Of a stretch of 41,941 nucleotides of DNA, positions 39,833 to 40,230 are shown one piece after another (the first letter of the stretch is position 1; every line of letters begins with the position of its first letter). The notes beneath the pieces were generated by a model. That model saw only the letters and a program-made list of their open reading frames with translations, searched no databases and was not told where the DNA came from. The translations under genes were made by a program, and so were the position numbers. Origin of the DNA: Xenococcaceae cyanobacterium MO_167.B27 (lineage in GTDB: Bacteria > Cyanobacteriota > Cyanobacteriia > Cyanobacteriales > Xenococcaceae); the NCBI GenBank assembly GCA_030065935.1, contig JASJCP010000049.1:1-41941 (forward strand). Direction: 5' to 3'.

Positions 39833-40230
39833 GTTTTTATCTCCTCTCTAATTTCGTCTAGATATTCTGATGCGGTTTTTTGTTGTTGTGAACGTTGTTT
39901 CAATTCAATTTCAGGGTTGAAGTCTAAACCTAATCGCTCAATATAGGTACTTGGGGATTCTGGTGCTAAAGTGAATAATCCTTTAATTTGTGGTTCTAAA
40001 ATACTAAGTACTCCAAATATGAAACAATCATCTGGGCGACGAGGACTATAGTTGCTGTTGTATCCGAATTTCTCTAATTCTTGATCTTTGTGAGAACTAA
40101 CACTATCGTACCAACTACTATTTTTATCCATTAACGCTTGTATCTAACTGCAATTTACTTGATAGTAATCTAGCCACTTGTTTTTTAATTCAGCTTTGAA
40201 TTGTTCGGGTTGTTCAAGGAAATTAACCAT
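39829..40230 (-). pseudogene. DUF5331 gene with an in-frame amber codon
   Basis: This gene between chlL and chlN is of the DUF5331 type, which is usual in cyanobacterial chl operons. Reading from an ATG at 40228-40230 gives MVNFLEQPEQFKAELKNKWL, which matches the expected start of the family, but TAG occurs at 40144-40146 (codon 29, after YYQVNCS). The frame stays open beyond and continues in phase through Met34 (40129-40131) to 39829. The family has Trp in this position as I recall it, so a TGG-to-TAG change is likely. A 100-residue product could still start at 40131. Alternatives are read-through or a sequencing error. It overlaps the chlN start by 4 bp. Confidence 0.75.

Follow-up and report, generated by a model that had tools for sequence, protein, structure and literature searches.

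DUF5331 (Pfam PF17265, gathering cut-off 27 bits) is a protein family whose gene is often found between chlL and chlN. Our literature search returned no paper naming it, and the passages found in PMC4500134 make no mention of a gene between chlL and chlN. Matches to the family at E 0.001 or better occur in 266 of the 388 genomes of the order, and those among the matches listed are free of stop codons. When 79 named loci carrying both chlL and chlN, some of them from the same taxonomic family as the DNA described here, were scored with our own profile, the full domain was found at 48, part of it at 2 and none at 29. Since 48 of these junctions carry the full domain, DUF5331 is not useless everywhere, and it is often kept outside this taxonomic family. 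The fold, which is predicted with confidence (mean pLDDT 88.5), has helices at residues 8–25 and 27–36. Compared with the PDB, the sequence gave a best match at E 0.11, Foldseek a single match that is not significant (E 7.1), and VIA-align no Z of at least 2 among 8 chains. No phage match was found for the DUF5331 protein of Hyella patelloides.

The window, i.e. the whole stretch of 41,941 nucleotides analyzed here, comes from a cyanobacterium related to Xenococcaceae and Hyella, a species represented by one genome. On its minus strand, chlL (41205–40342, GTG start) is followed by a DUF5331 frame (40230–39829, stop included) and by chlN (39832–38429). Both chlL and chlN are intact, with clean full-length matches to their equivalogs and good scores. 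The DUF5331 frame comprises 133 codons (39832–40230) and a TGA at 39829–39831, which the ATG of chlN (39830–39832) overlaps as ATGA. It begins with ATG at 40230 and reads MVNFLEQPEQFKAELKNKWLDYYQVNCS, then a TAG as codon 29 (40144–40146), then IQALMDKNSS and so on, open in phase up to the TGA. The coordinates and phase of this interruption are as an earlier note on this DNA had given them. The locus is single-copy in the genome, a draft assembly of 282 contigs, in which no second DUF5331 scores above the cut-off and one match lies below it (11.8 bits). Between chlL and the DUF5331 frame, at about 40310–40340, lies a short repeat that matches the same-genus genomes dozens of times, in short stretches and on either strand. 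Elsewhere in the window, at 36120–36297, a 42-bp tandem repeat (4.2 copies, 91% matches) lies within ORF 35666–36460 and encodes repeated WYYPNG(E/K)QAKWGST-like units.

The 100-residue piece downstream of the TAG alone scores 38.5 bits against PF17265, versus 68.7 bits for the whole frame with the TAG read as Trp, both above the cut-off. The intact homolog of Hyella patelloides scores 65.5 bits and is 71% identical to the window frame. On either side of the TAG, the frame aligns with this protein from end to end and is thus more than chance. The earlier note had placed a Trp of the family at this position, which proved right. Among 92 distinct DUF5331 domain rows extracted from the fetched loci, all 90 with a residue in the column of the stop have Trp; the other two, which have a gap there, are the downstream piece of the window itself and a fragment. 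In the codon alignment, in which the Hyella row ran two codons beyond its stop, opposite gaps, and from which the divergent G005 was left out, each of the six intact relatives aligned has TGG at the position of the TAG. The window frame therefore has a TAG in place of the invariant Trp of the NRxW motif, and relative to intact orthologs it carries an inactivating lesion (TAG versus TGG at codon 29). Judged from these alignments, the frame is a descendant of the DUF5331 family and not a normal member, and annotators should not call the 100-residue ORF a normal DUF5331 protein.

The same junction was compared in 27 genomes of the taxonomic family, 22 of which have chlN, giving 23 junctions as one genome has two. 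In this count L104, whose contig has no chlL match, is left aside and the two G021 rows are taken as one junction; several of the named loci L080–L159 belong to genomes already in the set. Two same-genus genomes, G001 (81% complete) and G002 (76% complete), gave no chlN match and hence are uninformative. At all 23 junctions chlL adjoins chlN. An open DUF5331 gene is present at seven (G009, G012, G004, G020, G015, G026 and G005), that of G005 having no ATG and probably starting with GTG. The other 16 are broken or empty, the window's TAG among them, and the lesions are of various kinds. The same-genus genome G003 has an in-frame deletion of 285 nt (95 codons), corresponding to 39897–40181 of the window and thus including the position of the TAG. 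Its remnant, MEKLIEQPEQFKTELKK joined to RSLQQ...REEIKT, is an ORF of 39 codons (L079, G003:C226, 9004–9123) in which the original start and the ATGA overlap with chlN are preserved. At both ends of the segment that G003 lacks, the window carries short direct repeats 285 nt apart, GAATTAAAA (40183–40191) and GAATTGAAA (39898–39906). In G011 the N-terminal part of the gene is gone and the C-terminal part of the frame is kept, with no Met at its front. C-terminal scraps were found by tblastn in G016, G022, G019, G023 and G025, the aligned piece of each of the first three containing a stop. At the remaining eight junctions no trace of DUF5331 was detected. Our own profile, which misses short scraps, scores none at 13 of the 23 junctions, and five of these 13 (G003, G019, G022, G023 and G025) hold pieces found by tblastn; the 29 named loci scored as none may therefore conceal scraps too.

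In a tree built from chlL and chlN DNA, the window groups with the intact Hyella (G009), with G003 and its deletion, and with one junction of G013 that has no gene, in a clade with a support of 0.999 inside which the branching is unresolved. Counting losses only, this tree requires 12 losses of DUF5331. The lesions of the window, G003 and G013 differ in kind, and for this reason we take them to be independent. The G013 draft assembly (5% contamination) contains two different chlL-chlN copies (L191 and L211), neither with detected DUF5331, which could reflect either a mixed bin or a duplication; these two copies share their chlL-chlN gaps with loci L081 and L083 of Xenococcus sp. MO_188.B8. In G021, ChlN (L212/L210, G021:C294) is missing about 35 internal residues in frame (residues 128–162 of the window ChlN), by deletion or by an assembly fault. 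ChlB is above its cut-off in 26 of the 27 genomes, all but G001 (81% complete). The loss of DUF5331 therefore does not accompany that of DPOR, which outlives the gene.

Compared with Hyella, the window gene has a dS of 0.49 and a dN/dS of 0.30, inside the range of pairs of intact copies (0.14–0.41). Polarizing the amino-acid changes assigns 12 to the window, counting the stop, and 13 to Hyella, and leaves 14 unassigned. The same-genus genome is no closer at chlN, where dS is 0.66 to G003 versus 0.50 to Hyella. Downstream of the TAG there is neither a further stop nor extra decay. Under a neutral simulation, a branch of 0.25 accumulates a mean of 5.2 stops, with at most one stop in 3.8% of runs, and a branch of 0.05 accumulates 1.3 stops. 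Set against the roughly five stops expected neutrally since Hyella, the clean frame suggests that the gene was under constraint along most of the branch and was broken lately, or that a short product continues to be used. Selection tests gave no separation of a gene that has just died from one that is still used, and a recent break would look no different from a base error or from a 100-residue product still in use.

We conclude that the chlL-DUF5331-chlN cluster of the window most likely contains a dispensable DUF5331 gene recently disabled by a nonsense mutation, and not a case of recoding. Ribosomes starting at 40230 would halt after 28 codons, so that no full protein would be made, and translation of chlN would still start from a ribosome-binding site of its own, located within the final codons of the disabled gene. 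This fits the different ways in which DUF5331 appears broken or missing at most junctions of the taxonomic family (16 of 23), the broken copies keeping the end piece. The earlier note had left three possibilities for the TAG, namely a gene just lost, a restart at Met34 and read-through. These fare unequally, the comparison favoring the loss, which is backed by the different lesions in close relatives and by the otherwise clean frame.

The end of the frame merits attention of its own. In the window, a Shine-Dalgarno sequence for chlN, GAGAGGAG (39841–39848), lies within the last codons of the DUF5331 frame (39833–39854), whereas none precedes the DUF5331 start at 40230. In the 14 junctions that keep this tail, not counting the divergent G005, the nucleotides immediately upstream of the chlN ATG are nearly identical and close to TTAGAGAGGAGATNAAAAC. 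The exact GAGAGGAG is present in 10 of them and differs in G009, G015, G026 and G016. Broken copies keep the last 20 or so nucleotides, and the tail is preserved even in scraps without a translatable gene. As these nucleotides hold the chlN Shine-Dalgarno, chlN need not rely on coupling; it would initiate on its own, and the DUF5331 tail probably survives for that reason. Some of the eight empty junctions (G006 and G021) have a weak GAGAGGAG-like sequence before chlN or none, which counts against a strict need for it. The overlap of the chlN start with the end of the frame had been taken earlier to mean that translation of the short form may still couple to chlN. The ATGA is indeed there, but coupling is apparently not needed, given the GAGAGGAG of chlN itself and the eight junctions without detected DUF5331.

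An error of sequencing or assembly, or a mutation confined to the culture that was sequenced, is an unlikely source of the TAG, even though it stands a single base from the TGG of all six aligned intact relatives, the remainder of the gene is open and the genome is a draft. The adjoining chlL and chlN are clean and full-length, and the 15 other broken or empty junctions show that DUF5331 is broken in nature.

One could also imagine that the start and the end of DUF5331 form a translated leader for chlN and that the protein core alone is dispensable, an idea that we regard as improbable. Short ORFs of this kind are seen in the 39-codon ORF of G003, which is in phase and keeps the ATGA overlap, and in the 28-codon upstream ORF of the window. 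If this were true, selection would keep short translated leaders that tune the translation of chlN.

It is unlikely that translation restarts at Met34 (40131) and that a shortened DUF5331 protein of 100 residues (39829–40131, minus strand) still works. This frame is clean and still above the Pfam cut-off with its 38.5 bits, its dN and dS relative to Hyella past the TAG are 0.156 and 0.574, and G011 likewise keeps the C-terminal part alone. However, there is no Shine-Dalgarno in TTGCAGTTAGATACAAGCGTTA, the sequence upstream of Met34, and recency alone accounts for the clean frame. The G011 piece has no Met at its front and may be a second wreck. In terms of the predicted fold, the product would be without helix 8–25 and most of helix 27–36, as well as without the invariant Trp; this loss makes a working short form unlikely, though possible. 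The restart put forward earlier is thus possible as such and weakened on these points.

Read-through or suppression of the TAG, giving a 133-residue protein, is very improbable: although the frame goes on past the TAG and the tRNA array of contig C134 has some odd members, RF1 is present and intact (prfA, 527.6 bits versus a cut-off of 423.25), the PylS model TIGR02367 had no hit reaching E 0.001, and no CUA anticodon was found by ARAGORN at the loci of 47 Rfam tRNA hits (36 sources), an exclusion that is incomplete as 150 of 555 candidates were scored in the Rfam search, which may have passed over an odd tRNA. Anticodon arms were also looked for in five tRNA-like stretches for which ARAGORN made no call or proposed an anticodon of four bases. 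None had CUA: two array members have UAA and GUA, one has no arm, and two stretches of 123–124 nt have no clear arm. A pattern of CUA arm plus T-loop occurs at five places, against two in a backward control, and ARAGORN calls a tRNA at none of the five. The array itself (L069, G000:C134:1500–4200) is a one-strand series of about a dozen tRNA-like genes with some odd anticodon calls, one member being 124 nt long with a long insert. A 123-nt tRNA-like stretch on C60 (L078) overlaps a sub-threshold match to YrlA (Y RNA-like; 40.5 bits, gathering 69). TAG is also used as a normal stop in the window. The stops were checked for 31 of the 32 window ORFs of at least 150 residues, ORF 16075–16791, which overlaps others, being left out. 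They end in TAA (20), TGA (7) or TAG (4). For one that ends in TAG, ORF 6626–7270, the frame is open for 73 further codons. The PAP_fibrillin domain is complete before its TAG (profile positions 23–197 of 198), and reading through brings no gain (109.4 versus 108.0 bits); this TAG is therefore a plain stop.

Taken alone, the TAG of the window is an ordinary event of little import, and its value is comparative. The junctions of this taxonomic family can be arranged as a decay series, i.e. open, nonsense, in-frame deletion, truncated, scrap and gone, which suggests that DUF5331 is not required for DPOR in that family. The series also shows how the end of a gene can persist as the ribosome-binding site of its neighbor.

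With the DUF5331 family the window frame shares a profile match above the cut-off and the site between chlL and chlN seen in intact relatives, and it differs in having TAG as the codon for the invariant Trp. It resembles amber recoding, by a suppressor tRNA or with pyrrolysine, in its in-frame UAG and in the frame that continues beyond, whereas its genome has RF1 and neither a suppressor tRNA nor PylS was found in our searches. The closest likeness is to an ordinary bacterial nonsense pseudogene, with a single premature stop, an alignable frame, other kinds of lesion in relatives and intact neighbors. In contrast to such a pseudogene, the window gene would be very young, with no second lesion yet, and the end of its dead frame has survived, probably because the ribosome-binding site of the next gene lies in it.
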